Assembly: GCF_964204645.1 (NCBI RefSeq)
Contig: NC_134026.1
Location: 21,780,650-21,844,649 of the forward strand
DNA: 64,000 bases
Source: Tubulanus polymorphus
Taxonomy: Eukaryota; Nemertea; Palaeonemertea; Tubulaniformes; Tubulanidae
Direction: 5' to 3'
Numbering within the stretch: the first letter of the stretch is position 1; every line of letters starts with the position of its first letter. The position numbers were made by a program, and so were the translations under genes. The notes beneath the pieces were generated by a model. That model ran no database searches, had not been told where the DNA came from, and saw nothing but the letters and a program-made list of their open reading frames with translations. Below, one piece after another: positions 2,869-47,884 of this stretch.

Positions 2869-5801
2869 ATGACGAGCTTCGTAGCCTTAGAAATATCATT
2901 ATTTACGATATTGATATTGTATCATCCAGACAGGTCCGGTGCCGTTTTGAAGATTCCCGATTTGGACGATAAACACTTTGAAGTTGACGGAGATTTAGTT
3001 TTGGGCGTTTTATCGTGGATCCATTACAGCGACGAGAGAAACGGATGTTCCGAGAAAGCATTTTTAGCAACGGGAATCGCGTGGACTGAAATGTTTAAAT
3101 TTGTCGTAAATGAAATAAACAATAATGCCACGATTTTACCAAATATAACACTGGGATTGGACATCTACGATGAATGTATGAGTACTCGAATCGCTGCCGG
3201 TCGAGCAATGCAACTACTGCACCGAGCTGGAACATTTCAGGATACCGCTTCAAATTTTACGTCACAAAAGCACCTCGTCGGTGTTATTGGGGGCATTGTG
3301 TCGTCAACGGCTGTCGCTATATCCAGGATCTTCACTCCGTTTGAACTACCGCAGTTAAGTATGTCGGCGACATCGGCCGAACTCGATTCTCGATTTCATT
3401 TCCCGTATTTTCTACGCTTACCGCCGTCAGATGCCGCACAGACGATCGTCATCGTAGATCTCATTCGATATTTTGGTTGGAAATATTTTGCAATTCTCTA
3501 TCGCGACGACAGTTACGGAATCAACGCCATGCAGATGATCATGCGTCTAACCCGAAAATTACCGGATGTTTGTATCGCTTACAGTAAAGCAATAAGCGAC
3601 GACAACATCGCAGAAGACACGAGGACGATTGTAAAACACTTAATCAAAGACGGAAGAGTCCGAGTCGTCGTAACATTTCTATATTCGGCGGCCGCATCTG
3701 GTTTATTAAGAGCCGTTAATGACATAACGCGCACGAACTATTTCACTTTCATATTTAGCGATTCAATCGTCCCGTTGGGCACCTATGAAAATGCAATAGG
3801 TGCATTGAGTATAGAGGTAGAATTCGACTCTAAAGGCGAAGATCATTTCTTTGACATCTACGAAAAATACACTTACAAAAATCTGTCGGCGAATAATCCT
3901 TGGAAACACCAGTATATGGAGCGTATGTTTAACTGTACGTGGGTACCGTCAAAATTATCTAAGTGTCATCAATTCGTGGATACGCCGTTTAGCGAAAGCC
4001 TGATACGAAGAAGGTCGGGATTCTTTACTTACAGTATGGCACATGATACAGTTTTGACTTACGCAACGGCCTTACATAAACTGATTGAAACGAAATGTCC
4101 AGATCTTTTTTCACATTTCAATAAAACGCTCGCAAAAATGTGCATTACGACTAAACATCTGTTACCGTACCTATACACTGTTTCATTCGACGGCAAAACC
4201 GGTCACATTGACTTTGATAAGAATGGTAACGGAATGTCCCCGTATCAAATAAATCAATGGCAGTTTACTGATGGAAAATTTAATATGCGTACAATCGGCA
4301 ATTATGACCAGTTCACCAAAAAAGTGTCCTTTAACAATAACTTGGTAATGTGGTATAATTACACGCGAAAAGGAACTGGCGGAAAATTTTTGGTGATCCC
4401 CTCGAAAATACAGAAGTCGACGTGCAGCGACCCGTGCAAGCCCACCGAATACGTTCAAACATTGGAGTCAAAATGCTGCTGGGAATGCAATAGATGCCGG
4501 AACAACGAATACATCGACGCGAACATCACAAAAGGAAACCCGTGCATAGCATGTCCGCTGTACATGTGGCCCAACCCTGATGACTCCAGGAGCTGCCGAA
4601 AACTCTCTTCGCAGTTTTTAGACATCGAGCACCCGATTGGAATCGGTTTATGCTTCGCTGCACTTATTGGTATGATACTAACTTGTCTGGTGACAGGTAT
4701 CTTGGTCAAATACCGCCGCAATCGACTGGTGAAAGCGTGCAGCCTGGAACTTAGTATTTTCATTTTAGTGGGAATTCTTTCCTGTTTTCTGGTGGTGTGT
4801 TTACTGATGATGAAACCGGAACGATTTGTATGTTGGCTACAGCGTTTCGGTTTTGCCATCCCGTACACAGTCGTTTATACCCCTCTTCTGTTAAAGAGTA
4901 CGCGCATGTATCGCATCTTTTGGGCTGGTAAACGCGGTATCTCGAAACTGAAATATATCAGCAACTTGTCACAAATTATCACCACATCCGTTGTATTAAT
5001 TCTGCAAGTAAGTAGTCTCCATTTTGAGTCCGTAAAAAACATTCCAGTTTCTGTCTAATGTGTTAAGTTTTATATAGAATAATTTTATAAGGCGATTTGA
5101 AAATCTTGAATTACCAAGTTAGATATTTCACGTGATAATTGCGATTTGTGAATAATTCCATTTGATTTCGAGTTACGATTATCATGTATATCCTTATGTG
5201 TAACTGTGCAATATCACTTGACACATAAGCATAAATTGAGCGTCATGAGATGCCACATCCACTTCTAAACATATTTCACAGTTCTTCTTTGACGTTTTCT
5301 GTCTTTCAGGGAATGCTTGTATTGATATCGGCATTAGTTTACCCGCCAGTTCCACGGTTTATCATGCCATTGCTGACGACACCGTATGTTGAACTGATTT
5401 GCGACCTGCCTGTTCCAGCGCTTGTCATACCGCTTTCATTCAACATCCTCATCATTTTCGTCACGGCCGTGCTCGGATTCCTCACAAGGGCGTTACCGGA
5501 TAACTTCAACGAATCGCGTTATATATTTCTGTCAGTGAGCGCTACATTTTTTTTATGGGTCGCTTTTTTGCCGACGTACTTTTCGGCATCAACCGCGGCC
5601 CACAAGGTTATGCTGTTAGCGCTTTCCCTTATTCTAAGTTCTCTTGTCATATTAATATGTATTTTCATTTCTCGTTTGTATGGTTTGTTTTGCATTGACG
5701 GAGATGCGATGACATTTCTGACCATAAATGCTTCATCTGTGGGACAGGCCACCACCTCTAGAAACATTCAAGTCAGTTCGATTTCGCAATTAGAAGTATA
5801 A
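2869..5801 (+). CDS. Class C GPCR, metabotropic glutamate receptor-like, tandem copy 1
   Basis: Two exons, 2869-5007 and 5310-5801, joined in phase 0 across a 302-bp GT-AG intron; 876 residues. In order: a hydrophobic N-terminus likely to be a signal peptide, a Venus-flytrap ligand-binding domain (about residues 30-490), the cysteine-rich NCD3G linker (CSDPCKPTEY to SRSCRKL), and the 7TM_3 domain with the intron inside helix 4. Residues equivalent to the alpha-amino and alpha-carboxyl contacts of mGluRs are present: Ser in IGGIVSSTAVA, Thr in SMSATSAEL, Asp in LPPSDAAQT, Tyr in RDDSYG and Asp in IFSDS. The arginine of the mGluR GIQR motif, which binds the glutamate side chain, aligns with Trp in TGIAWTEM. 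It is therefore probably a plasma-membrane receptor for an amino acid or small molecule other than glutamate (inference). The ATG at 2869 was chosen over an upstream in-frame TTG because it precedes the hydrophobic signal and matches the copy 2 start. Confidence 0.88.
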
Positions 5802-8222
5802 GAAACTTCTTCACCAAAAGAACTGTCAAATGTCTCCTTGAGTTTGCGTTTATTGATTTAACTTCGTTTTGAATCATACGTAAATTTCCCTGGCAATCTC
5901 GCTCTTTCTATTTTCTTTTCAGAACGCCAAACCTCTTTATGGATTCAATCAAATGTAGACATTTTATCTAATTTACCTGATTACCTATGGTCTGCGCATG
6001 GCATACTGCTAAACGATCTTCGACGAGTACCATCTATTTGCAGAATGTCCTATTTCAAACCAGCATCGACCTGGAAGGGCCCCGTAATATTTGAATTGCG
6101 TAAACTTCTTAGCCTTGTTAAGCTCGTATAGAAAAAAACCTTACAGGCAATTAGAATATATATTACATAAAACTACGAACAACCCTTAATCAACCTTTAC
6201 CCATCACATACGGATTTGAAACGTAATTCATAATCATTTCGGTCTCTTGTATCTGTAACAACCTTGCATTCTTGTTTTTGTGCATTAAGTATTTTGTGTA
6301 ATTTTATTTGTTGTTTTTTTTTTGTCAATTATACATCAAAGCAAGCCTTATATTTGCCACATTTTTTACCGGAACGTCACTTAACCATCCTCCAAACGTT
6401 ACCCGGGACATCCATACATTACAGCTAAAAATCGCCTGAAAACACAAAATACGATACTGATTAATTGTTCAGCATTCGTTTTTTTGCGCATCGCACTGTG
6501 CCGACCCGAAAATTAACAAAAATACGAAAATGTACAATTTCAACGTCATTCGAGATCGGAGACTATATCATCCGTTGACGGCTTAGTATAGAAGTTGAAA
6601 AATTAATTGAATATGGGATCGCTTTGCTCCACGCAGAGGTAATGATCCCAGAACTACCGTAACCGGTTGACACGATGACATAAATATCACTAGTAAAAAA
6701 CTAGATCATAAAATAAATCATGCTGATGGATAAATTGAAAAAGAATCAAGTTTCCGAAGCCTTAACGCAAATATGATAATCCTTCGAAGCACTCACTTAT
6801 TATCAATTGTTAATCTCAACGTTTTCGTGTGTATTTTCATGTCAAATGAGAGAATATCACACTAAACGTCATCGACGGTGTATATAGACTTGGTTATTGA
6901 GACAATGCAAACATAACAGGGCGGTGCCCTCCATTCTTTGTTGTTTTATGAGTTCTAGTGCAATGGAATTCCCCCGGGTCATCGCGACTTGATACCAACG
7001 CACGAACCAGGAAGGTTATACTAGGAATTTGAGACTCACTTTCGTCCACGTTTTATTGTATCATTCGCCTTATCGTGATATGTACCTATGTTTCTGACAA
7101 TGCCAATTATGAATACGACGATAGCATCAATACACCCCACCGGAGATGCCGAATACGAAGTTCAAAAGAGGGCGGTGACTTGTTCGTATCTAACAATTTA
7201 TATAATATATAAGTATAATAAATTGATATAAGCCATGGTCATTTTACTTTACGTCGAAATATTATGTCAGGGTTCACGAGTTGTGAAAATGCTGATATGG
7301 GTTGACAAATGTTTGGCACACAAGGATTTCAACAAGGCAAGATGGGTAGAATTAAGAATAGTTCAGGTGAAAAGCGTAATTTGATGCTGATAAGAATATT
7401 GAAGTTGGTATACGGAAATAATGTCGCAGGAGAAAGTTTACAATGGACTACATAACAATATTGTTTCATTTCCGCTACACATTATCAACAATTTGCACAG
7501 TTTACAAATAATATCCAATTTATATACAATTTGCGCCGTTTACAAAAAGTCATTTACAACATTTCATTAATGAAAAATTAAATCATCAAAAGTCTTCACA
7601 GTTTACCGCTCATGTGTCACGGCACGGTTTTTTCACAGTTAATCCGCACAATTTATCACTTCACTTACCCATCACTGTTAGAGTCCATGATCTAACCAAT
7701 AGACTTCTTGACCTATGACCGTCAGATGAAATTTGTCTGTCTGATATCATTTTGGCGTGAAATTGACTTATTTACATATGTTTCCGGGAAAATTTTTTCC
7801 TAGGGAATTTTTTCCTACATTTGTTCGAATTAAGTGGTTCTATTCAATTGATGAATATTAATGGCAGACAGATAGCATCTAAACCTTCACAAAATAGGAA
7901 TATATATCTACATAGAACTCGTGTATTAGTTAACAGCAATATATGCATATAACTGAGATCAACGTTTTTCATGCATTTTGGTACTCGAATTATTTGTATT
8001 GGTACTCTGAGCAATTTTTGTGAAGCACAAACTTTAATTTTATTTTCTATTTGTGCCGGAATAAGTATCTTGCCAGGTTTTTCTCCCAAACTTCCTCATC
8101 AAACATATACTGAAATCCGCATCTAAACTGAATATAGATAGAAATGAATTTTAATTAGGAAATGTAATACCAGTAGAGGCAGTAACATTACATACCGTAC
8201 ATGTACTGTTTCGATTGGTTTT
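5802..8222. other. Intergenic between receptor copies 1 and 2
   Basis: About 2.4 kb of AT-rich DNA with no supported gene. Only short chance frames, T-runs and a diffuse series of 'caatttgc/cagtttac' motifs at 7480-7640 were seen. Confidence 0.6.
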
Positions 8223-8358
8223 CACTGCTGAAAGCGCTTCGTCGCGCAGACCGCGAGTTATCACGCACATCATTTAAGAATAAGCCATGTAATGACACTA
8301 CAATCGTCAATTTGATTCTCCTACTTCATGCACGTATTTTCTACCGACATCATAAATA

Positions 8359-11319
8359 ATGATGATGAGTTTCGTAGCGTTACAAATATTTCGTAGCATT
8401 ACAAATATATTGCTCACCTTAATGATATTGAATTTTTCGGAAAGGTCCGACGCCATTATGGAGATTCCCGATTTGGACAATAAACATTTCGAAGTTGATG
8501 GAGATTTAGTTTTGGGCGTTTTATCATGGATCCATTACAGCGACGAGAGAAACGGATGTTCCGAGAAAGCGTTTTTAGCAACGGGAATCGCGTGGACTGA
8601 AATGTTTAAATTTGTCGTAAATGAAATAAACAATAACGCCACGATTTTACCAAATATAACGCTGGGATTGGACATCTACGATGAATGTATGAGTACCCGA
8701 ATCGCTGCCGGTCGAGCAATGCAACTACTGCACCGAGCTGGAACATTTCAGGATACCGCTTCAAATTTTACGTCACAAAAGCACCTCGTCGGTGTTATTG
8801 GGGGCATTTTGTCGTCAACGGCTGTCGCTATATCCAGGATCTTCACTCCGTTTGAACTACCGCAGTTAAGTATGTCGGCGACATCGGCCGAACTCGATTC
8901 TCGATTTCATTTCCCGTATTTTCTACGCTTACCGCCGTCAGATGCCGCACAGACGATCGTCATCGTAGATCTCATTCGATATTTTGGTTGGAAATATTTT
9001 GCAATTCTCTATCGCGACGACAGTTACGGAATCAACGCCATGCAGATGATCATGCGTCTAACGCGAAATTTACCGGACGTTTGTATCGCTTACAGTAAAG
9101 CAATAAGCGACGATAACATCGCAGAAGACACGAGGACGATTGTAAAACAATTAATCAAAGACGGAAGAGTCCGAGTCGTCGTTACATTTCTATATTCGAC
9201 GGCCGCCTCTGGTTTATTAGAGGCTGTCGATGACATAACGAGGACGAACTATTTCACTTTCATATTTAGCGATTCAATCACTCCGAGTGCGTTGGGAACC
9301 GGCAGAGAAAATGCAATAGGTGCATTGAGCTTAGGTGTAGATTCCGGGTATAAAGGTGATGATTATTTCTTTGAAATCTACGAAAAATACACATACAAAA
9401 ATCTGTCAGCGAATAATCCTTGGAAACACCAGTATATGGAGCGTATGTTTAACTGTACGTGGATACCGTCAAAACGATCAAAGTGTCAGCAATTCGTGGA
9501 TACGCCGTTTAGCGAAAGCCTGATACGAAGAAGGTCGGGATTCTTTACTTACAGTATGGCACACGATACAATTTTTACTTACGCCATGGCCTTACATAAA
9601 CTGATTGAAACGAAATGTCCAGATCTTTTTTCACATTTCAATAAAACGCTAGCTAATATGTGCATCACGACTAAACATATGTTGCCGTATCTATACAATG
9701 TTTCATTCGTCGGCAAAACAGGTCACATTGACTTCGATAAGAATGGTAATGGAATGTTCCCGTACCAAATTGACCAATGGCAGTTTACTGATGGAAAATT
9801 TAAAATGCGTACAATCGGCAATTATGACCAGTTCACTAAAGAATTGTCTATCAGCAGAAGCTTAGTCACGTGGTATAATTACACGCGAAAAGGAACTGGT
9901 GGAAAGTATTTGGTGATCCCCTCGAAAATACAGAAGTCGACGTGCAGCGACCCGTGCAAGCCCACCGAATACGTTCAAACATTGGAGTCCAAATGCTGCT
10001 GGGAATGCAATAGATGCCGGAATAACGAATACATCGACGCGAACATCACGAAAGGAAACCCGTGCATAGCATGTCCGCCGTACATGTGGCCCAACCCTGA
10101 TGACTCCAGGAGCTGCAGAAAACTATCTCCGCAATATTTAGATGTAGAACACTCAATTGGAATCGGTTTATGTTTTGCGGCTGTTGTTAGCATGTTACTA
10201 ACTTGTCTGGTGACAGGTATCTTGGTCAAATACCGCCGAAATCGACTGGTGAAAGCGTGCAGCCTGGAACTTAGTGTTTTAACTTTAGTGGGCATTCTCT
10301 CTAGTTTTCTGGTGGTGTGTTTACTGATGATAAGACCGGGACGATTTGTATGTTGGCTGCAGCGATTCGGTTTTGCCATCTCGTACACGGTCGTTTATAC
10401 CCCTCTTCTGGTAAAGAGTACGCGCATGTATCGCATCTTTTCGGCTGGCAAACGCGGTATCTCGAAACTGAAATATATCAGCAACTCGTCACAAATGATC
10501 GTCACATCAATTGTATTATTGTTACAAGTAAGTAGTTTACCACATGATTCCTTGAGATAGCTCCTACATTCTGCTAGTCTTGATATACATATACGTTTTT
10601 TTCAAAGTTAGGATTTGTAATCACTTTTTGAATGTGCGTAGATGCCATTTATCATTCCTAAATTTCACTAAAAATGTCGTTTGATACAACCATGAATTCT
10701 TTTTTTGTGATCATGTGATGATTTGACATCTCCATTAGCTCGATGCTGCAAGTATTGGGCTATTGTCATACTGTGCAAATTGGAAAGTCTACCTGCAAAA
10801 TATCTATGATATGGATGTGTTCTGTCTTTTCAGTCATTGTTAGCAGTGACATCGGCATTAGTTTACCCACCAGTTCCACGGTTTATCATGCCAGTGCTGA
10901 CGACACCGTATGTTGAACTGATTTGCGACCTGCCCGTCCCAGCGCTTGTCATACCGCTTTCATTCAACATCCTCATCATTTTCGTCACGGCCGTGCTCGG
11001 ATTCCTCACAAGGGCGTTACCGGATAACTTCAACGAATCGCGTTATATATTTATGTCAGTGAGCGCTACATTTTTCTTATGGGTCGTTTTTTTGCCGACG
11101 TACTTTTCGGCATCAACCGCGGCCCATAAAGTTATGCTGTTAGCGCTCTCCCTTATTCTAAGTTCTCTTGTCATATTGATATGTATTTTCATGTCTCGTT
11201 TGTATGGTTTGTTTTGCATTGACGGAGATGCGATGACGTTTCTGACCTTAAATACTTCGTCCGTTGGACAGGCCACCACCTCTAGAAACATTCAAATAGG
11301 TTCAATTTCACGCGCTTGA
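8359..11319 (+). CDS. Class C GPCR, metabotropic glutamate receptor-like, tandem copy 2
   Basis: Two exons, 8359-10527 and 10834-11319, joined in phase 0 across a 306-bp intron; 884 residues. Same plan as copy 1: signal sequence, Venus-flytrap domain, NCD3G cysteine-rich linker and seven transmembrane helices ending in a short tail (SVGQATTSRNIQI...). Three consecutive ATG codons begin the frame; the first was taken. The Ser/Thr/Asp/Tyr/Asp amino-acid contacts are kept and the GIQR-equivalent arginine is again Trp. Compared with copy 1 the protein is identical over long blocks but differs in clusters: the strand after IFSDS (PSALGTGRENAIGALSLGV), the stretch around ELSISRSLVTW, the start of helix 1, and the first residues of exon 2 (SLLAVTSALV against GMLVLISALV). 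The differences look like separate conversion tracts and not uniform divergence. Ligand and expression cannot be judged from sequence. Confidence 0.88.
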
Positions 11320-11401: not shown

Positions 11402-11474
11402 TACCATGGACGTATGAACTAAGATTTCTTTGAACTAGGCCGTCCTTCTAGTTTATACGTCCATGGTTATACGT
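11402..11474. repeat. Inverted 'ccatggacgtat' pair
   Basis: 'accatggacgtat' at 11403 and 'atacgtccatggt' at 11456-11468 form an inverted pair about 40 bp apart. The same palindromic motif recurs at 11802 and, compactly, at 63255-63291, so it marks the ends of a dispersed element family. Confidence 0.5.
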
Positions 11475-12135
11475 TTATCAGTTTTATATATTGTTAATCG
11501 ATTGCTCCAAAAGAAGATATATCAATTTCTCCGAGCATAACAAAATACGTAGCACAGTCAACCTCGGTTAATCCGTCACCGGTTAAACCATATAATTGCT
11601 TATTCCGTATAAATAAATTGGTCCCGTTTTTCAGTAACGTTATACCCTTTTAAAATTCTTTGTCTAATTCGTACTCCATAATCCGTATTTTCACTTATTC
11701 CGTAGACAAATGCATGGTCCCGTTGTCCAATTTATATGTAAATCCTTATGTGTAATCCGTATCAGCTGTTGGACACATACACTTGAAGTACATACACTTA
11801 AACGTCCATGGTTATACGTTTATCAGTTTTAGATATTGTTAATCGATTGCTCCAAAAGAAGATATATCAATTTCTCCGAGCATAACAAAATACGTAGCAC
11901 AGTCAACCTCGGTTATAATCCGTCACCGGTTAAACCATATGATTGCTTATTCCGTATAAATAAATTGGTCCCGTTTTTCAGTAACGTTTACCCTTTTAAA
12001 ATTCTTTGTCTAATTCGTACTCCATAATCCGTATTTTTACTTATTCCGTAGACAAATGCATGGTCCCGTTGTCCAATTTATATGTAAATCCTTATGTGTA
12101 ATCCGTATCAGCTGTTGGACACATACACTTGAAGT
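11458..12135 (+). repeat. Two-copy direct tandem repeat, 344-bp unit
   Basis: Unit 1 (11458-11801) and unit 2 (11802-12135) are nearly identical, with only scattered changes such as small indels near 11570 and 11635. Each unit contains the terminal motif 'cagtcaacctcggtta' (11555 and 11900), whose inverted partner lies at about 12375-12399. The reading frame at 11836-12027 falls inside the repeat and is not a gene. Confidence 0.85.
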
Positions 12136-21387: not shown

Positions 21388-21672
21388 TCAGTCCTAACTA
21401 TTGATTATTCTCAGCACAAATTTGCTTTATTTCATTCAACTAGATTATTAATCAACGCGAAAACTGGGCGGCTGTTGATACTCGGAAAAATGACTCTACT
21501 ACTACACTACACCCACTGCGAACTGTCAAATTAGACGGGGATTCCCCGAAATACTTCCTGGTTTCCAGTTCCATATATTGCCGCTACGAAAAAAAAACAT
21601 TACCTCGTCGACGAAACAATTTTGTTTTGTTGGAAAAATTATTTCCGGGTTCGCCTTATTTTCAGTGTAAGA
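21388..21672. promoter_or_regulatory. Divergent intergenic region between SH3BP2-like and CIAO1
   Basis: Only 285 bp separate the two start codons, so both 5' UTRs and core promoters must lie here or overlap. No TATA box is evident. The segment around 21530-21620 is richer in C and G than its surroundings. A shared bidirectional promoter is inference from spacing alone. Confidence 0.5.
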
Positions 21673-23940
21673 ATGGTCGTGGTGGTTACATGCGCGGTTG
21701 GCATCTTAGAAGGCCACTCAGAATGTGTTTGGAAAGTTTGTTGGAATCCGAAAGGAACGCTTTTGGCGTCTTGTAGTTCTGATAAGTGCATACGTATTTG
21801 GGGTAAAGAAGGTAGGCGTAAATTTCAGAAGATACGAAATTTTCTACTTGCTACTGGTGAACTCGGACTAAAACTCAGTCATGACCGGGCCGGAGAGTTA
21901 TCCGCTCCACAGCTTCGCAAACATGTGTCAGTGGATTACTCCATCTGATACCAATCCTCGGTGGGGGCCAACCATATTGTTTTTAGTTTTCCTGATTGAG
22001 ATAATGGACTCAACGAAAGCGTCGGCTAGAAGACCATAGAGACTAATGCATGTACTTTTCGGTTTGCAGGTGATAATTGGGTGTGTAAGACAGTACTCGA
22101 GGATGGACACTCGCGAACGATACGCTGTGTATGCTGGTCGCCTTGCGGTAAATATTTGGCATCTGGGAGTTTCGACGCGACGATCTGCATTTGGAAAATG
22201 GAGGCCGATGCATTCGAATGCATCGCAACGTTAGAAGGTCACGAAAACGAAGTGAAAGGAGTTGCTTGGTCGTGTTCAGGAAACCTGTTAGCCACGTGCA
22301 GTAGAGATAAAAGCGTCTGGATTTGGGAAGGTATCTTAGATGTCATTGCTTAATCAGATTTTGTTATTTCTTTTTTTTTCAATTGACAGACTATTTTGAA
22401 TTTCGATCATTGTCATATGTTTTGAAAAAGCTAAAATGTCATAAAAATATTTTAATTCAAACGATACAATTTTCAGTGGATGAAGATGAAGAATTTGAGT
22501 GTGCTAGTGTTATCAGTTCACATACACAGGATGTAAAATCAGTTGTTTGGCATCCAGATGTAGAGGTAATCTGATAGAATAACTATATCCTATGCTCTAG
22601 TCTCAGAAAAGATAACTGACCATAAAATCCCCTTTGACATCACCTGCTTCAATCCAAGCTACTCAAAGTTAATCACTAGGCAGTTAAAGGGTATTTTTTG
22701 AGGTAGCCATTGCTGGAAGGGTCTCGGTCATTCGTGTTTGTAAATCAATCTATGAATTGCTTCAAAAATCAAATTTCACTTCACTTAGAATATTTTGTCT
22801 ACACTAGATGTTAGCATCAGCAAGTTATGACGACAGTATTAAACTCTACGAAGATGATGGTGATGATTGGTCCTGCATGAACACTCTAGGTATTAGAAAT
22901 AACCAACTATCCTACATAAAATGTTTCCTAAAATATACGATGGAACCATATTACAATGAACTACTCGAGCCGGCCAGAAAATCTCTTGACATCACGGTCA
23001 AAATTATGGTATTCTCTGAGAAATAATTACTGTATAGTTTGAAGTTCATTATAACACGGTTCTGATGGCTCGCAATTTTCATGGCTCAAAATACAAATAT
23101 TGAATTCCAGAGTCTCACGATTCCACGGTTTGGAGTATCGATTTTGATAAGCGTGGATCGCGAATAGTATCGGCGAGTGATGATAAAACTGTAAAAATTT
23201 GGCATCAATACCCACCGGGAAACGAAGAAGGAATAGCCACGCCGAATAACAAGCCGGCTTGGAAGAATGTCTGCACATTATCTGGATATCATTCGAGACC
23301 AATCTACGATATACGATGGTATGTTTATAGCTATATTAGAATTATAGATAGTAGACTTGCCACAGGGCCCATTGCCTGCCTTTAATTGTCATTTTCTCCA
23401 GAAAATGTGTTAAAAATTCTTTTATTGTCATTCACGAGATAACGACCCATTGTTGCTTCCGATTCACATAGAATTCCCTTTACCTTGGGAATAAATTTAT
23501 CTGTGCCTTGAGATCGAAGCCAAAGTACTCTAGTTTCACATACTGCTCATGGTTCGAATCCTGATTTTGCAACAGACAAACATTATACTGCTTCAGCGAG
23601 GGAGACACTTTCAGATCAGAAAGAAACGACTTTGTGCACTAAATTTGCTGTGTGTTCCCCGTTTGAGACTTAAAGAATGATAATATATAACATGTTGTTT
23701 TTTAGGTGTAATGTAACAGGACTTATAGCCACAGCAAGTGGAGATGATAATATTCATATATTCGAAGAGGAACCGACTTCCGATCCGAATCAACCGTCAT
23801 TTACTTTAGGAACGACTATTAAACAGTCTCATCAACAAGACGTAAACAGCGTAGACTGGAATCCTGTAACACCCGGTCTATTGGCCAGCTGCAGTGATGA
23901 TGGTACAGTGAAATTATGGCAATGTACAATTGAAAATTGA
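21673..23940 (+). CDS. CIAO1: CIAO1, cytosolic iron-sulfur assembly WD40 protein
   Basis: Six exons in matching phase: 21673-21811, 22070-22330, 22477-22565, 22808-22889, 23111-23318, 23706-23940; 337 residues against 339 in human. The protein is a seven-bladed WD40 propeller. Diagnostic blocks include [125 protein letters not shown] and [20 protein letters not shown]1 is part of the CIA targeting complex with MMS19 and CIAO2B, which delivers [4Fe-4S] clusters to cytosolic and nuclear apoproteins. An in-frame codon upstream (21622) could extend the frame but would add residues absent from the family; the ATG at 21673 gives the expected length. A polyadenylation signal AATAAA follows at 24045. 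It is divergent from SH3BP2-like and convergent with WDR11. Confidence 0.95.
23525..23575 (+). repeat. tRNA-like B-box, possible SINE remnant in CIAO1 intron 5
   Basis: 'atggttcgaatcctg' matches a polymerase III B box. The surrounding sequence does not fold convincingly as a tRNA and no clear A box was found, so this is at most a degraded tRNA-derived SINE. Confidence 0.3.
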
Positions 23941-33700: not shown

Positions 33701-35787
33701 TAGATATGTAGAATTTTTTACCATTACTGGTCGGACATTTTGAAAGTGAGAAGTCATTTATGAAGACTACACAGTCTGAACCAAGAACTGAAAAAAAAGA
33801 GATTGAATTGGATGAAAAAGTAACTATACAATAGTAATAATAGCACTGTTAAGATTTGGCATGTATCATACTCCCACCCCCCTAGTTACATTAAGAATTA
33901 TACAGCTCCATCGGAGAAAAGTTTGCTACTTACAAGCAACGCGATTCGCATCAAACGGATCAAAGGAGAATGATAACAGGGTCTCCGCGTAATTCTTTTT
34001 CCACAGTTTCGTGCCCGTGTCTGCATTCCATAATATAACGGTATACGGCGGGTGTATAGTGGCGAGTAGATCATGAGACACGTCCTGCGACGAAATCCAT
34101 TCCATATCCTGGATATGCTTCGAACCATCGCAGAATTCGGCTTTCACCGATGCCTGGATGACGTCCCAAACGATTATCTTACCGCCAGTGTCACCGGACG
34201 CTACGCGCAGAGTGTACGGGTTCATCAGGTCGTGGTGATAGTTTTCTCTCGCCCATTTCACCTTATAACAGACATACGCAGCTACTTTTTAAGCAATTTT
34301 TAATTATCAGAGTTGCCCAGTAGATGTTCCCAGGGATGTTTTGAATCACTGGTAATGAAACAGTTTTCATACAACTAATGCAATCGGTTATAAGCTGGGT
34401 ACCGGTATCTATTTTCTGCTTTATTCAACTACTACCACAGTTTCATTTCTGATGATTGTATGACAATTTCTCAAACACTGAACCATAGATTCTTAATGAC
34501 ATAGAAATTGAATCGTGTAAAAAAGTCAAATTGTTTTTGATATCTGAGCGATATCTGAGTTGGATGTTATTTGGTTCATAAATAGCGTCACAAAAATATT
34601 CCAACAAACATCCGAGTTGAACAGTTATGTGAGTTGATCGCATCTGACACGTGCGGCGTCAACTGTATGTGGATGAATAAATGGGAATACACCAGTTAAG
34701 CCTATTTTATGTCAATTTTGCTAAATTGTGAAGACGATACCTTACAAACTGGAGCTTTATGTCGTCCTAACGTCTGCAGAGTTTGACAGCTCTTCGTTTC
34801 AATAATGACCACAAATGTTTGACAACCATACGCCAACATTCCTTGCCATCCCCTAAAAAAAAACACAATGACACAATGCTGAATGAACTACCATACTGCT
34901 GGTTAAGGCCACTGCACGTGAGTTGAATAACGCAGACGCAAAGTGCGCAGTTTTTGGCTCGTGTGCTCTCGCGTACACTTTACGCTGCATTCGTCGTCAA
35001 TGCGCATGATGCTTGATATATTACATGATTATCACTTTCTGTATGGTATGGCGTTAGTTGAATTAATAGAATCAGTTTTCCCTCCTTGCAAGACCCTCAA
35101 TTTTGATGTAGATGTAAAAAAGGAACTGAAGAATTGCTCTTTACATTCAAATAGATTGGACAAGGATGATGAAAAGTCGCTTGAATATGGTGCAAATAGG
35201 CCTATGCAGTAACAGTTGTATGATGCACACTTGCTACAGCTCCCTTTACTGAGCGCATTTTTCGGCTCACGTGCATGGGTCTATATTTTGCGCTAAATGC
35301 GAACGAAATTTGCCCAGCGCAAAATGTTCTCGTGTACAGGCGCCTTAAGTTAGGGCCTACAATCGGTAGACATGCTTTTTCTGATGACCGATAAGCCTAT
35401 CTCCTCTAATTTTTTAGAAAACAGACAGCACTCTCTATTTGCAAAGAATGATATAAAATAAGGGTAGATAGAAAGTTACAAAACAAGAGTTCAACAATCA
35501 AAATACTCAATTGCATTTGATTTGACAGTCGCTCCAGTCCAGTCCAAGGACAGAAGCCAATGCCATGACAAGAACTTAGGTTAGCAGGAGAGAGGCCCTC
35601 AAATTGAGGAAAGGGCTGTGTAATACACCATTTTTGGAAAGTGTTCCTCCTGACAGATAAATGGTATGGTGGTAGAAAGAATTAAGAAAGGGTAGAAATC
35701 GGTCGGTGATAGTTACCAGTCACAGGCGCTCTTATTACTTGCATGTAATATACCAGTTAGGGTTTTTGGAGCAAGCTTCATATTCAT
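24706..35787 (-). CDS. WDR11: WDR11, WD repeat domain 11 protein
   Basis: Twenty-six minus-strand exons, phases all consistent: 35787-35717, 34852-34741, 34261-33934, 33787-33686, 33486-33375, 33077-32906, 32613-32475, 32212-32025, 31575-31224, 31113-31029, 30861-30682, 30600-30492, 30320-30211, 30134-30008, 29792-29686, 29495-29381, 28298-28130, 28039-27868, 27398-27248, 26797-26615, 26265-26099, 26001-25907, 25819-25722, 25367-25287, 25186-25042, 24851-24706; 1271 residues (human 1224). Exon 1 (KTLTGILHASNKSACDW) matches the N-terminal signature. Further diagnostic blocks are KWARENYHHD, ILWNADTGTKLWKK, LSFSFDPFD, LILDLEINQTVGI, ALTTKNWNVYQP, THRGWVRKVKFAPGRGNHK, ARLFGDESEVHFWTIALH, RWVDHLCSPQVNQK and MRYFDRAALFVEAC. 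There are two N-terminal beta-propellers and a C-terminal alpha-solenoid. In vertebrates WDR11 forms a complex with FAM91A1 and C17orf75 that tethers endosome-derived vesicles at the trans-Golgi, and it is linked to Hedgehog signalling and ciliogenesis. No break was seen. Confidence 0.95.
27594..27760 (-). repeat. Fragment of dispersed 'gggactttagtccc' repeat family in WDR11 intron
   Basis: In inverse orientation this matches parts of the 63301-64000 element: 'gtgtcgagggtagatacatgta', 'ttgaagcgtcttcaaaact' and 'cgctgggac..aagtcc'. It is a truncated copy. Confidence 0.65.
31670..31730. repeat. Near-perfect 61-bp palindrome in WDR11 intron 8-9
   Basis: Arms 'tataaaagctcaggctttgg' and its complement 'ccaaagcctgagcttttata' flank a short AT centre ('gaatattatattc'), giving a hairpin with arms of about 27 bp. 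It sits in an intron on the minus-strand transcript. Confidence 0.8.
32713..32790 (+). repeat. tRNA-derived SINE or degenerate tRNA (Ser/Leu type) in WDR11 intron
   Basis: Begins 'ggggcagtggccgagtgc', very like a class II tRNA acceptor stem, D-arm and A box. About 45 bp later comes 'catggttccaattctag', a B box with substitutions. Stems are imperfect, so it is probably a SINE or tRNA pseudogene and not a working tRNA. Confidence 0.5.
34903..35348. mobile_element. piggyBac-like MITE in WDR11 intron 1
   Basis: TTAA occurs at both ends (34903 and 35345). Adjoining it are imperfect inverted termini: left 'ggccactgcacgtgag', right complement 'ggcgcctgtacacgag'. Length about 446 bp. The plus-strand frame at 34943-35212 lies inside and has no recognisable transposase domain. 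Confidence 0.55.
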
Positions 35788-40902: not shown

Positions 40903-43900
40903 ATGTTACAGCCTGATAGCGATGTCGATGATGATTCATTAATGACAAGTGATGTTCTTCATTACCATAAAAACAATGGCAGGAAGAAATGTGGTGAATG
41001 GATAAATGAACATTTTCCATCAACAAACAAGAGTTCAATTTATACCAAGCTTGACAGGATGGTGAAACATCATGAAAGTTTGCTGAAGTCAAAGAATCGG
41101 CCATCAAAAAAGGTAATGTTACATCTCATCATTAGAAAATGACATTCTCGACCATCTCGAATCTATAATAGTTTTTATAATATAATAGTTTTTAGTTGAT
41201 AAAAACATAAGATAGAGTTTTTTGTCAATTAATTTTAATAAAGAATGAAAAATACTCTACAGTCCTACAATAATGATAGAATTTATAAATGCAGTATTAT
41301 AAACTTGAAGGGAGACAAAAATATAAATTCAGTTTTTTCTCCAGTGAAGCAATTAGCCAAATTTCATTTCTTGTAGGAAGAACTTCAAAAATGGCTGCGA
41401 ACACCATTCGAAATGTCCAATAAGCGCAATTGTCAAGATGAACAGCAAGCTGATCACAGTTACTCTGCATCACCTTTACCTGAAAAAGAAAATCCATGTT
41501 ATAATTCCATCTTAGAAGAAAAGAAAAAACAGCTGAAAAGAGTAACTGAAAGTAAGCGATATTACAAAAATAAGAGTGAAAATTTAGAAAGATCTACATC
41601 ATCAACTGCATTACAGGTTTGCGATAACTGTACTGATATAATAAGAGAACTTGAAACCTGCCAGCAAGTCAATTTAGATCTAAAGGAAAAATGTAGAATG
41701 TATGAAGAAAATATTAGATTGAACAGTGAGATTGAACAAACAGAAACTGACGGGGTATATAACACCAAATTCAGAGCTCTGGTTTATGAATTACTGATGC
41801 ATCATGTTCCAAGTGAACATGTTAATTCTGTAATAAGTTCATGCTTTAAATATCTTGGGAAAACTCCATCAAAACTGCCAAATACTAGTACTATACGACG
41901 AATGAACATCGAACGATTAGGCTTAAGCCAGATGCAATTGGGGGATGAACTAAGTCGTAAAGAGAATACAACATTATATTCTGACGAAACATCTAAATTC
42001 GGAGAGAAATACATGGGTTTTCACGTGACAGGGGAAGACAGAAAACATTACGTACTTGGACTGAGAGACCTCACCACCAAATCAGCAGATGACACCCTCC
42101 ATACATTCAAACAAATAATACAAGACATTGATGACAGATGCTCCGAAACAACTAATACAACTGGCAAACACATTTTAAAGAATATTCAGAATACAATGTC
42201 CGATCGTGCAGCTACTGAGCTTAAGTGGCACGAACTCCTCTCCAACTACAGATTGAACATATTACCTGAGACGATTTCTAACTGGAATTTAATGTCAGCG
42301 GACGACAAAGCACCCATCGAAAGTTTAGCGAATTTTTTCTGTGGCTTACATAGCTTTGTTCAGGTGGCTGAAGTCACCCAGAAAGTCCTCCTGCAGCAAC
42401 AAAAAGAAAAAGACCTGGTCGTAACAGGGCCACAGATTATACAACCATCGGAGCCAGGTGTCATTCGTCTGATACGTACCGCGGCAAAAGCGTTTGCAAG
42501 GGGTGCCGATGAAAAAAGTGGATGTCATGCCCACTTCAAAAGTTTCCTGACTGAGTTCCTCAAACATCATCAACTCAGAAGTATACCAATTGTTCCTTTT
42601 CGAGGAAATCGATTCAATATCATCTTTTTCAATGGAGGATTTGTGTACTTTCTTCACAAAAAGATGATTGATTATTTGGAAATGGTTGATAATCCAAATC
42701 GCCTCTTGAAGTCTGTGTTTGCAGACCTTAAATCCGTAGACAATATCGCTGGATGTAAAGCATTAGGGCTAATCAGTAAATTCATCACTGGACCATTGTG
42801 GAGGCTCACTGAGGATAAAACAGTAAAAATGGTAGACCTCATTCGATTTGTTCCAGAGCTCATCAGTTACATCGAAAGTGCTAGTGCCAGGATCAGTGAA
42901 TTTATGAATGGTGAACTTGAAGTCTTTAGCGACATATATCCTGTAAAGAAAGATCATGTATATTCATGTTTGATAGAAGAATCTGAATATGATAATGAAT
43001 GTGAACTGCAACTTTCCGTCATCTAACCTGCTATTGTCAATCTGCTCAAGGAACAGTATAAGGAATTTTTGGAGGGAGGTGAATTCTCAACTAATGAGAA
43101 ACATTCAACATCAGGAAGTGCTGAGCTACACAATAAGTTTGCAGAAAGAGTCTTTGCCTATTCTGATCAGTTACTCAGATTCAAGCCCAACATCAGTCAC
43201 ATTGGAATTGAAGCTTATATTATGTTCTCCCTCAACAAGACACAAGACTGGCTAGCATCAAAACCTACAAAACAGCAAGAAGCACTTGTACAGAAAGCCA
43301 TGACTGATCGCCGCAAGATACAAGAGCTTTACAAATTGCGCAGAAAAGAGATAGCTGAAAAAAGAATTCAGAACTTAGCTGATAAGAGAAAGGCGCTAGC
43401 TGAAAAAAGAGAACGGCAAATGAAGGAAAGAGAACTAATAATCAAAGACATCATGTATTATGGCTTTTGGCAAACTCCCCAAGATGTTATCCAGAGTTTG
43501 AATAATCTGAAAACCAAAAGTGATAAAGAAATGGCTTTGAAGGGACAGCTAAGGTTCCGTGAGATAATTCTCCAGCAGCAATGGGATGATGCTTCTATAT
43601 ACAGATTTTCTGTGAGAGTAGATGAAAAGAAAAGAAGGAATTTAAGTTTAGATGAACTACAAGCAAATGTCATTCAGCTTGTCGAAGCAGCAGAAGCGAT
43701 TCCAACAACCGCAACGGAAAGAGAACGAGCTGGAAATTTGATAGGGAAAACAATGTAAAAAATGAAGACGATCCAAATGATAGCGGCGTACTCACCAAAT
43801 TTTTAGCTACGGTTATTTCTTCTGTTCCTGGTTACTCGTCATGGTTCAATATCAAGTACGATAATGATGATGCATTGTATGTTGAGAAACTGGAAGAAGA

Positions 43901-44959: not shown

Positions 44960-47884
44960 GGTCTGAAACAACAGTACCGGTTCAGGAGCCAAACAATGAA
45001 GAGGCATCAAGGCAGACTCAATCGACAGGTAAAGGCACCTTATTAAGGCCAAAAATAATTTCTTGTCAACAGCGATACAGCATTACTTATGTCTTGGGCT
45101 ACATTTTGATTACACCATGTTTTCATTCATTTTTAGGATCAGATGAGCAGTCAGCTACATGTGGCAAGAACCAGCAGCAGAGAAATGGGATAACTGAATC
45201 AGGTAAATTAATTGAAAGTAAAAATTTAGATTTTAGCCCTTGTCTTGATGATATGTGGTATGTGTTGGTGTACCTACCCAAAGACATCTGCTGACAAATT
45301 TGGCGAATTGTGACATAAGTTGTTACCCAATACATAACTCCTAAATGCATGCTTGGATTGAATGGTCTAAACAGTGTATAAAAGCAACACTTTACTTAAT
45401 AGTTTTTCTTTACAATTTTTCAGAGATCAGGTCGTTATTTGATACCTCTAAAGACCAGATTCATTCTGCTGACATCTGTAAACATAACTGTCTGCATGTT
45501 TCATCAAAGGACAAACTCGAGTATACAAAAGGCACCCGGGTTATCAAATTTAATCATGATTGGTTTTTGATTAAGGAAGCATATGATGCAGTGACTGACA
45601 CTAAGTGGCTGGTATACCAGGAAAATGTAGGCATGTTCTGTGTACTACCGTATGTCGGAAACACGATGGGATCAGTAAGACTAACAAAAACAAAGTGTGG
45701 GTCAGTGCGCCATGTCAAAAGATAAGGACTGATGCGATGTATGATCATCTAGGATCGGAAAAGCACAAAGACTGTGTTAAGGCGGAATTACTTCAAAGAG
45801 GATCACTCTTCCAAAAACAGATTGACCAGAAAAGTGCATACGAAAATTCTGTTTTAAAAATGGCATTTGAGTCTTTGTATTATGTTATGAAGGAAGAAGT
45901 TGCACTGCTTAAATTCCATTCACTTCTTCAACTGATTAGCAGATGTGGTGTTCCCAGTATAGATCTGTTTGACTATTCTTCGCCAGCTTCTATAAGAGAA
46001 ATGGCTGTATGTATAGGCAAGGTAATAAAATCAGAGTTCATGAGTCAAATCAAAGATAATAACCGTGTGTTTGGTCTATTGACTGATGAAGTTAGTGACA
46101 TTAGTGTCAAAGAGCAGCTTGTTACTTTCATTAGGGCAGTGTCAAGGTCAGGTAAATCCCAAACTAACTTTTTGACCATTGATGAGTTGACTGGCTCTGC
46201 AAATGCAGATAATATTGTTAAAGCCTTGACCTCAGTAATCGAGGACAATGGTTTGGATGGAGGCATGATGACAAAGTTTGTCTCTGACGGAGTTTCTACG
46301 TTTACTGGCAAACACAATGGGGTAGCTGTACAGTTGAAAAGGAAATTCAACTACGCTATGTTGTCAATCCATTGCATTTGCCACAAACTGGCTTTGGCAA
46401 GTGCTGATGCTGATCAGTCTTTAGATATGATTAAAAATGCTGTCCAATTGTTAACAAATATTTGGAGATTTTTTGAAAATAGTCCTAGAAGGACATCAAA
46501 TCTTGTCAAAGTTCAAAGCCAGTTGAAGGCCCTGGCGGTAGATTCAAATTCTGTAGATTTTGTCAGTACTAAAATTAGGAAAGCATGTAGGACAAGATGG
46601 CTATCGATTGAACAATCTCTAGTATCCCTATTATCAAATTTTGTAGCGGTTTTACAAACACTACGTATCGAGAAAGAAGAGAGAGATGAACCATTAGCAA
46701 TAGGCCTCTTGCGGCAACTAAACAGTAGTAAAACCCTTGGGGTTCTTTACATATTGAATGTAATTGTGCCAGTTCTGGCATCTCTCAGTCGTTGCTTCCA
46801 GGCTTCGGAACTAAATTTCAGTATGCTAAAGCCAGCTATTGCTGCTGCCAAAAACAAGATAGTGTCTGAGCCTGATCCAATCATCAAATTGAAAAGGGAC
46901 ATAGCTGATGATGGGATCTTTAAATCTTTAGAACTTCAGTTAAACGAAACGACTGAAAAAAGTCTTGTGAATCTGTATTTAAAATACAAACTGTCGGTGA
47001 TTGACAATATTGATGCCAGGTTTGAAGGATGTCTTGGCGTATTAGATGCATTTGGCATATTCGATCCAACACTTATTCCTGATGAGCATACAGTTGAATT
47101 TACTTCCTATGGGAAAGCAGAGTTACCTGAAATTGCTAATCATTTCTTCCCTGGTGATAATGACAAAAGTAGAAAATTACACTTGGAGTATGATGGCTTC
47201 AAATACCAACTTTTGAAACAAAATAAAATTGAGGCTCGTATCAAAGAAGAAAAACAGAGAAAAAGTTCATGTGAGAAAAGTGCAAAAAAATCAAAAAAGC
47301 CAAAACATAGTGATACGGCAATTGAAATTGAAACCCCCCTGGAGAGATTATGTGATAAAGTGTTTTCTTCTTATGTCACCTACAGTAATTTCTACCCTAT
47401 TATAACCCAGTTATTAGAAATAGTGCATTCTGCACCTATTTCAAATGCGTGGCCTGAAAGGGGTGCTAGTGCCGTTAAACGCATAAAAACCAAAGCAAGA
47501 AACAGGATGTCTAATAAAGTTCTCAATGCACTGATGCAGGTTTCGATCAATGGCCCTAAATCTGATCAAGCAAGTTCAATAATCAACAAAGCTGTTGATC
47601 ATTGGCTCTCAAGTAAAACTAGGCGAAAGTTACCAAAACAGCAGAATCAAACTGTGACCATGGATTCCACTGCATCAGTTGCATCTTCAGTCTGCTCAGT
47701 ATCTGTTCAGACTGAAGATATTGATTCATTAGACATCACTGATGATTTCGTGGAAGAAGAGATTTCTATTGCTAGCACTTCACCAAAAGAAATGTCTACT
47801 TCCACCAGTGAGGAGCTAATGAAATTATTTGGTCTTGGCACTGATAGTGATGATAATGATGAAGATGAATTTGATGGTTTTTGA
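44960..47884 (+). pseudogene. hAT-superfamily transposase (ZNF862-like), frameshifted in its zinc finger
   Basis: Small upstream exons (44960-45028, 45137-45202, and from 45424) join in phase. The third exon runs into a TTF/BED-type zinc finger (KFNHDWFLIKEAYDAVTDTK ... GMFCVL). The frame shifts at about 45645-45655, where removing 5 bases would bring CVL next to CRKHDGISKTNKNKVW and the finger's closing DHLGSEKHKDC. After that a single open frame reaches the stop at 47884. The catalytic-domain signs are those of hAT transposases: VFGLLTDEVSDISVKEQL (first Asp), FVSDGVSTFTGKHNGVAVQL (second Asp), HCICHKLALA (Cys-His), TRWLS, and the C-terminal APISNAWPERGASAVKRIKT (Glu) with NALMQVSINGP. The acidic tail ends in DNDEDEFDGF. 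AATAAA follows at 47917. ZNF862-like genes are partly domesticated in animals, so this may be a host gene with a mutated or misread finger. The first exon was not found. Confidence 0.75.

Follow-up and report, generated by a model that had tools for sequence, protein, structure and literature searches.

Glutamate-gated metabotropic glutamate receptors (mGluRs; classes I-III) bind the distal carboxylate of glutamate with two residues, Arg78 and Lys409 in mGlu1. Both are lost in the class IV mGluRs, which keep the contacts to the amino-acid backbone and are found in each of the bilaterian phyla examined, with the exception of vertebrates; in related non-bilaterian classes, about half of the proteins retain the glutamate residues (PMC6307864). 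The authors of that study proposed that another amino acid is the ligand of class IV receptors and that the more divergent receptors serve in chemoreception (PMC6307864). The Drosophila receptor DmXR does not respond to glutamate; L-canavanine activates it, and mutating the conserved backbone Thr removes this response (PMC2695807). In the calcium-sensing receptor (CaSR), Trp70 contacts bound L-Trp (PMC4977154), and mutation of this residue abolishes activation (PMC8115157). Lineage-specific expansions of mGluR-like genes have been described in Trichoplax (placozoans), corals, sponges and a hemichordate (PMC10133484). The genes reported here resemble these receptors, and their pocket residues are compared with them below.

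Structure of the receptor genes and their surroundings

The window, by which we mean the whole stretch of 64,000 nucleotides that was analysed (C2:21780650-21844649), comes from an animal genome of 268 Mb and contains the complete coding exons of two class C receptor genes (B and C) and the final exon of another (A). The first exon of gene B (2869-5007, +) is an open frame encoding the signal region, the Venus-flytrap domain, the nine-cysteine domain and helices 1-4, and it ends in CAA followed by the donor GTAAGT. Its second exon (5310-5801, +; acceptor TTTCAG) continues in phase from helix 4 to the C terminus and stop codon, with class C 7TM homology. Gene C has the same layout and the same donor sequence, with a first exon at 8359-10527 (+) and a second exon at 10834-11319 (+; acceptor TTTTCAG), the latter covering PF00003 positions 138-250. 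For gene A, only the second exon (752-1231, +; acceptor TTTCAG), again running from helix 4 to the stop codon and 91% identical to that of gene C, falls within the window; the first exon lies upstream (C2:21758752-21760896), across an intron of 20.5 kb. A genome search found only one second exon for each of the three first exons. Gene A is ~88% identical to B.

The encoded proteins have 874-884 residues, and no stop codon interrupts their reading frames. Pfam identified the ligand-binding region (PF01094), the nine-cysteine domain (PF07562) and 7tm_3 (PF00003) in both B and C, with 7tm_3 divided between the two exons; this order of Venus-flytrap, nine-cysteine and class C 7TM domains is that of a class C GPCR of the mGluR/CaSR/T1R type. 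Matches to PF01094 (E 6e-57) and PF00003 were above the curated cut-offs, and PF07562 scored slightly below its own (38.3 versus 38.9 bits), the nine cysteines being present nonetheless. The nearest solved structures are mGlu8 (E about 1e-74) and mGlu4 (E about 1e-70). The initial annotation had reported two complete receptor copies in the window, and the exons, GT..AG introns, uninterrupted frames and Pfam domains of B and C bear this out. The possibility that A, B and C are pseudogenes was ruled out by their open frames, intact splice sites and dN/dS (0.30-0.38 overall among the three); they are intact and under purifying selection.

Several other features lie in and near the window. Directly downstream of gene C is a 346-base tandem repeat (11453-12135) of two copies that are 97% alike. 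The 20.5-kb intron of gene A contains, upstream of the window, a Polinton/Maverick-like element (C2:21761484-21773272; L033, L034) with separate open frames matching a Pox_A32-type packaging ATPase (E 5e-13), a type B DNA polymerase and a capsid N-terminal domain, and with a chromodomain adjoining its integrase-like frame. A LINE-like reverse transcriptase is located at C2:21778922-21779624. Within the window, a 759-residue open frame (45605-47884, +) with a hAT dimerisation domain (PF05699, E 4e-6) corresponds to a largely intact hAT-type transposase. Two adjoining open frames of 549 and 243 residues (41377-43758, +), in the same frame with one stop between them, gave no match in a Pfam search and perhaps encode an undescribed transposon protein. 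Exons of a WDR11-like gene (33929-34288, -; Beta-prop_WDR11_1st, E 4e-13) and a WD40-repeat gene (21535-21945, +) are also present.

Residues of the ligand pocket

Pocket columns are given in mGlu1 numbering, and B and C were aligned to rat mGlu1 (1ewk) with two alignment algorithms. The reference sequences of rat mGlu1 and human CaSR were identical to PDB entries 1ewk and 8szh over the lengths used. With both aligners, all five backbone anchors (Ser165, Thr188, Asp208, Tyr236 and Asp318) were kept in A, B and C, which thereby carry the residues of an alpha-amino-acid-binding class C receptor. The same five residues had been named for the two complete copies in the initial annotation, which had also placed Trp at the position of Arg78. 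Both observations hold: Trp occupies column 78 in A, B and C with either aligner, and in the PDB alignment the GIAW of the query stands opposite GIHR of mGlu8 and mGlu4. The Trp codon is at 3082-3084 (+) in gene B (Trp72) and at 8593-8595 (+) in gene C (Trp79), and gene A also reads TGIAW. This is the column of CaSR Trp70, to which it aligns ungapped.

Read by mGlu1 number, B and C have T74, W78, S165, S186, T188, D208, Y236, Y292 and D318, and gene A has the same residues. Two further side-chain positions are thus substituted (Tyr74 by Thr and Glu292 by Tyr), the Arg323 loop is gapped or shifted, and the Lys409 column, which is locally ambiguous, falls on Thr or Phe according to the aligner. 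All five side-chain positions (74, 78, 292, the 323 loop and 409) are therefore changed in A-C, and none of the three has the pair of Arg78 and Lys409 by which a glutamate-gated mGluR of classes I-III is recognised. The observation is wider than first noted, as it takes in the third gene, A, and side-chain losses beyond Arg78. An AlphaFold2 model of the extracellular region of B and C, built from an alignment of 2 sequences, had a mean pLDDT of 31.4, and pocket geometry therefore carries no structural claim here.

Evolution of the copies and of their clade

In all three pairwise comparisons among A, B and C, synonymous divergence was lower in lobe 1 (B residues 37-214), which holds most of the backbone contacts, than over the whole gene (dS 0.06-0.08 versus 0.17-0.20). 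The deficit was significant for each pair (Fisher p 0.0013, 0.0002 and 0.0001), suggesting that lobe 1 has likely undergone gene conversion. The stretch after Asp318 in lobe 2, the site of mGlu1 Arg323, is among the most divergent between the copies. A, B and C do not differ in their pocket anchors or in the Trp, and these recent copies thus show no sign of divergence at column 78.

Searching the genome with family members as queries, we found eight more first exons of the same type (L004-L011). In a maximum-likelihood tree, these and A-C form an 11-gene clade (support 100/99), within which A, B and C group together (100/100) and, with L004, L005, L006 and L008, form a larger group (100/100). 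A phase-0 intron in helix 4 is shared by the clade: each of the 11 first exons closes with a Gln or Glu codon followed by a GT donor, and the second exons that were found (n=10) resume the frame behind an AG acceptor. This intron is absent from four canonical mGluR-like genes of the genome (L013, L014, L016 and L031), whose frames read through this point.

Column 78 varies across the clade, with Trp in A, B, C and L006, Arg in L008 and L010, His in L007 and L011, Glu in L005, Thr in L004 and Tyr in L009. The backbone columns of the 11 genes have a mean entropy of 0.45 bits, a degree of conservation reached by 60 of 100,000 random five-column sets. The distal columns have 2.3-2.4 bits, a variability matched by 4-7% of random sets; they are thus variable, though not to an exceptional degree. 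Some backbone anchors are lost in L006, L008 and L011. Outside the clade, the class I-like L017 and the class II-like L012 retain Arg78; L012 also retains Lys409, and the L017 fragment stops before column 409. The presence of strong relatives from classes I and II would point to a bilaterian invertebrate; the assembly gave no match to mitochondrial cox1, and none to the GFP family in a search run with no positive control. We offer only tentatively, at well under even odds, the idea that the members of this mGluR-derived clade are a small group of receptors for different amino acids, with a largely fixed backbone grip and varied side-chain readers, in which the Trp lining of A-C was reached independently of CaSR.

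Two other arrangements were seen on C2. At C2:27420995-27427882 (L004, L005, L026), two first exons stand in a row and one second exon was found; because both donors are in the right phase, L004 and L005 may be alternative ligand-binding exons joined to one shared membrane-domain exon. A tandem cluster at C2:26025673-26046376 (L015, L018-L020, L048-L058) comprises eight or more open frames for Venus-flytrap domains, some of which are interrupted by stops. In the four of these that were aligned, the Arg78 column holds Leu or Phe and the Asp318 column Glu or Val, and the cluster forms a separate clade on the maximum-likelihood tree.

Candidate ligands and comparison with known receptors

We favour the reading that A-C keep the backbone grip of an mGluR, have lost the means of reading a glutamate side chain, and most likely bind a non-acidic amino acid or an analogue of one; we give this a probability of about 0.68. 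The two-lobed extracellular domain would hold the alpha-amino and alpha-carboxyl groups of the ligand through Ser, Thr, Asp, Tyr and Asp. At the side-chain end, the positive charges for a distal carboxylate would be gone, and the pocket would be lined by Trp, comparable to Trp70 at the amino-acid site of CaSR, with Tyr at the Glu292 column; the distal wall would be hydrophobic or aromatic. The loss of charge and the Trp lining both point to a non-acidic ligand, and neutral or hydrophobic/aromatic amino acids would be the first candidates. Closure of the lobes would reach the membrane domain by way of the nine-cysteine domain, and the output would probably be Gi/o, given a second intracellular loop like that of mGlu4 and mGlu8. 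It is from sequence that we infer a non-glutamate ligand, its class, the G protein and the physiological role, for which a putative chemosensory function is possible. The precedents of DmXR and the class IV receptors, the variation at column 78 and the canonical relatives that retain Arg78 support the non-glutamate reading. The proposal of a locally duplicated receptor family for a different amino acid, made in the initial annotation, agrees with the residues, with purifying selection on the genes and with the clade pattern; its ligand part stands as the favoured reading of the pocket.

It is unlikely that A-C are themselves without a ligand and serve as partner subunits of heterodimers or signal constitutively, like GABA-B2. 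Cys140 of mGlu1, which forms the intersubunit disulphide and is a further mark of glutamate-gated mGluRs, has no counterpart in A-C, where its loop is shortened. A covalent homodimer would thus be lost, and the three clade members that lack some anchors also suit a non-binding role. However, every anchor is kept under purifying selection in A-C, which would be needless in a subunit that does not bind.

We think it a little less probable again that A-C are still receptors for glutamate (or aspartate), with another basic residue or an ordered ion or water in place of Arg78 and Lys409. Local gaps leave the Lys409 column uncertain, and B and C have an RRR motif 3-5 residues before it. In A, however, the motif is GRS although the remaining pocket is identical, so the Arg cluster is not a conserved substitute. 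The initial annotation had named a different conserved Arg or Lys at the distal position as one result that would count against it, and the alignment contains none. The five distal positions have also changed together, and DmXR and class IV receptors with similar losses are predicted or were shown to be unresponsive to glutamate. By alignment, it is possible that one basic residue from elsewhere in the pocket replaces the lost charges.

A role as divalent-ion sensors with an amino-acid co-agonist, in the manner of CaSR, would be consistent with two features that A-C share with it, the Trp in the Trp70 column and an uncharged residue where mGlu1 has Lys409. We consider this improbable, as A-C belong to a clade on the mGluR side, apart from CaSR, and better CaSR matches are found elsewhere in the genome, on C10 and C8. 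Ligand class has shifted before among class C receptors, as in the T1R sweet-taste receptors and V2R, and the lobe-2 lip after Asp318 differs between A, B and C, yet a non-amino-acid ligand (a peptide or other metabolite), with the anchors persisting for folding or closure, is very improbable given the full alpha-amino-acid anchor set in all three copies.

If their ligands were found, the genes would provide a natural mutational series for a single pocket position, set in a related scaffold. With such a series one could ask how mGluR-type receptors switch ligand, and whether a Trp in the Arg78/Trp70 column confers a preference for neutral or aromatic amino acids.

Receptors of this kind have already been described, and A-C add members to them. 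The novelty implied in the initial annotation does not stand, since class IV mGluRs already lose Arg78 and Lys409 with their backbone contacts kept, and the Trp found here is that of CaSR Trp70. Like CaSR, A-C have Trp in this column, a non-basic residue at the Lys409 column and the Ser and Tyr anchors; where A-C have Thr188 and Asp318, CaSR carries Ser and Glu. As CaSR is only about 23% identical to B, the analogy between the Trp residues may fail geometrically. Orthology with CaSR was ruled out by the position of A-C in the 11-gene clade and by the better matches on C10 and C8. The many divergent mGluR-like genes of this genome resemble the expansions in Trichoplax, corals, sponges and a hemichordate, whose ligands are mostly without assignment (PMC10133484), whereas the expansion here is smaller, is marked by one shared intron and has its pocket residues tabulated gene by gene. 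A further likeness in the pocket is to the class IV mGluRs, including DmXR (mangetout), which share with A-C the mGluR architecture, the kept backbone contacts and the replacement of Arg78 and Lys409; for class IV this is judged by the published description (PMC6307864), and the maximum-likelihood tree holds no class IV sequence. A-C differ from these receptors in belonging to a local clade of 11 genes that have the helix-4 intron in common and in having Trp at column 78, and the ligand of DmXR is L-canavanine.
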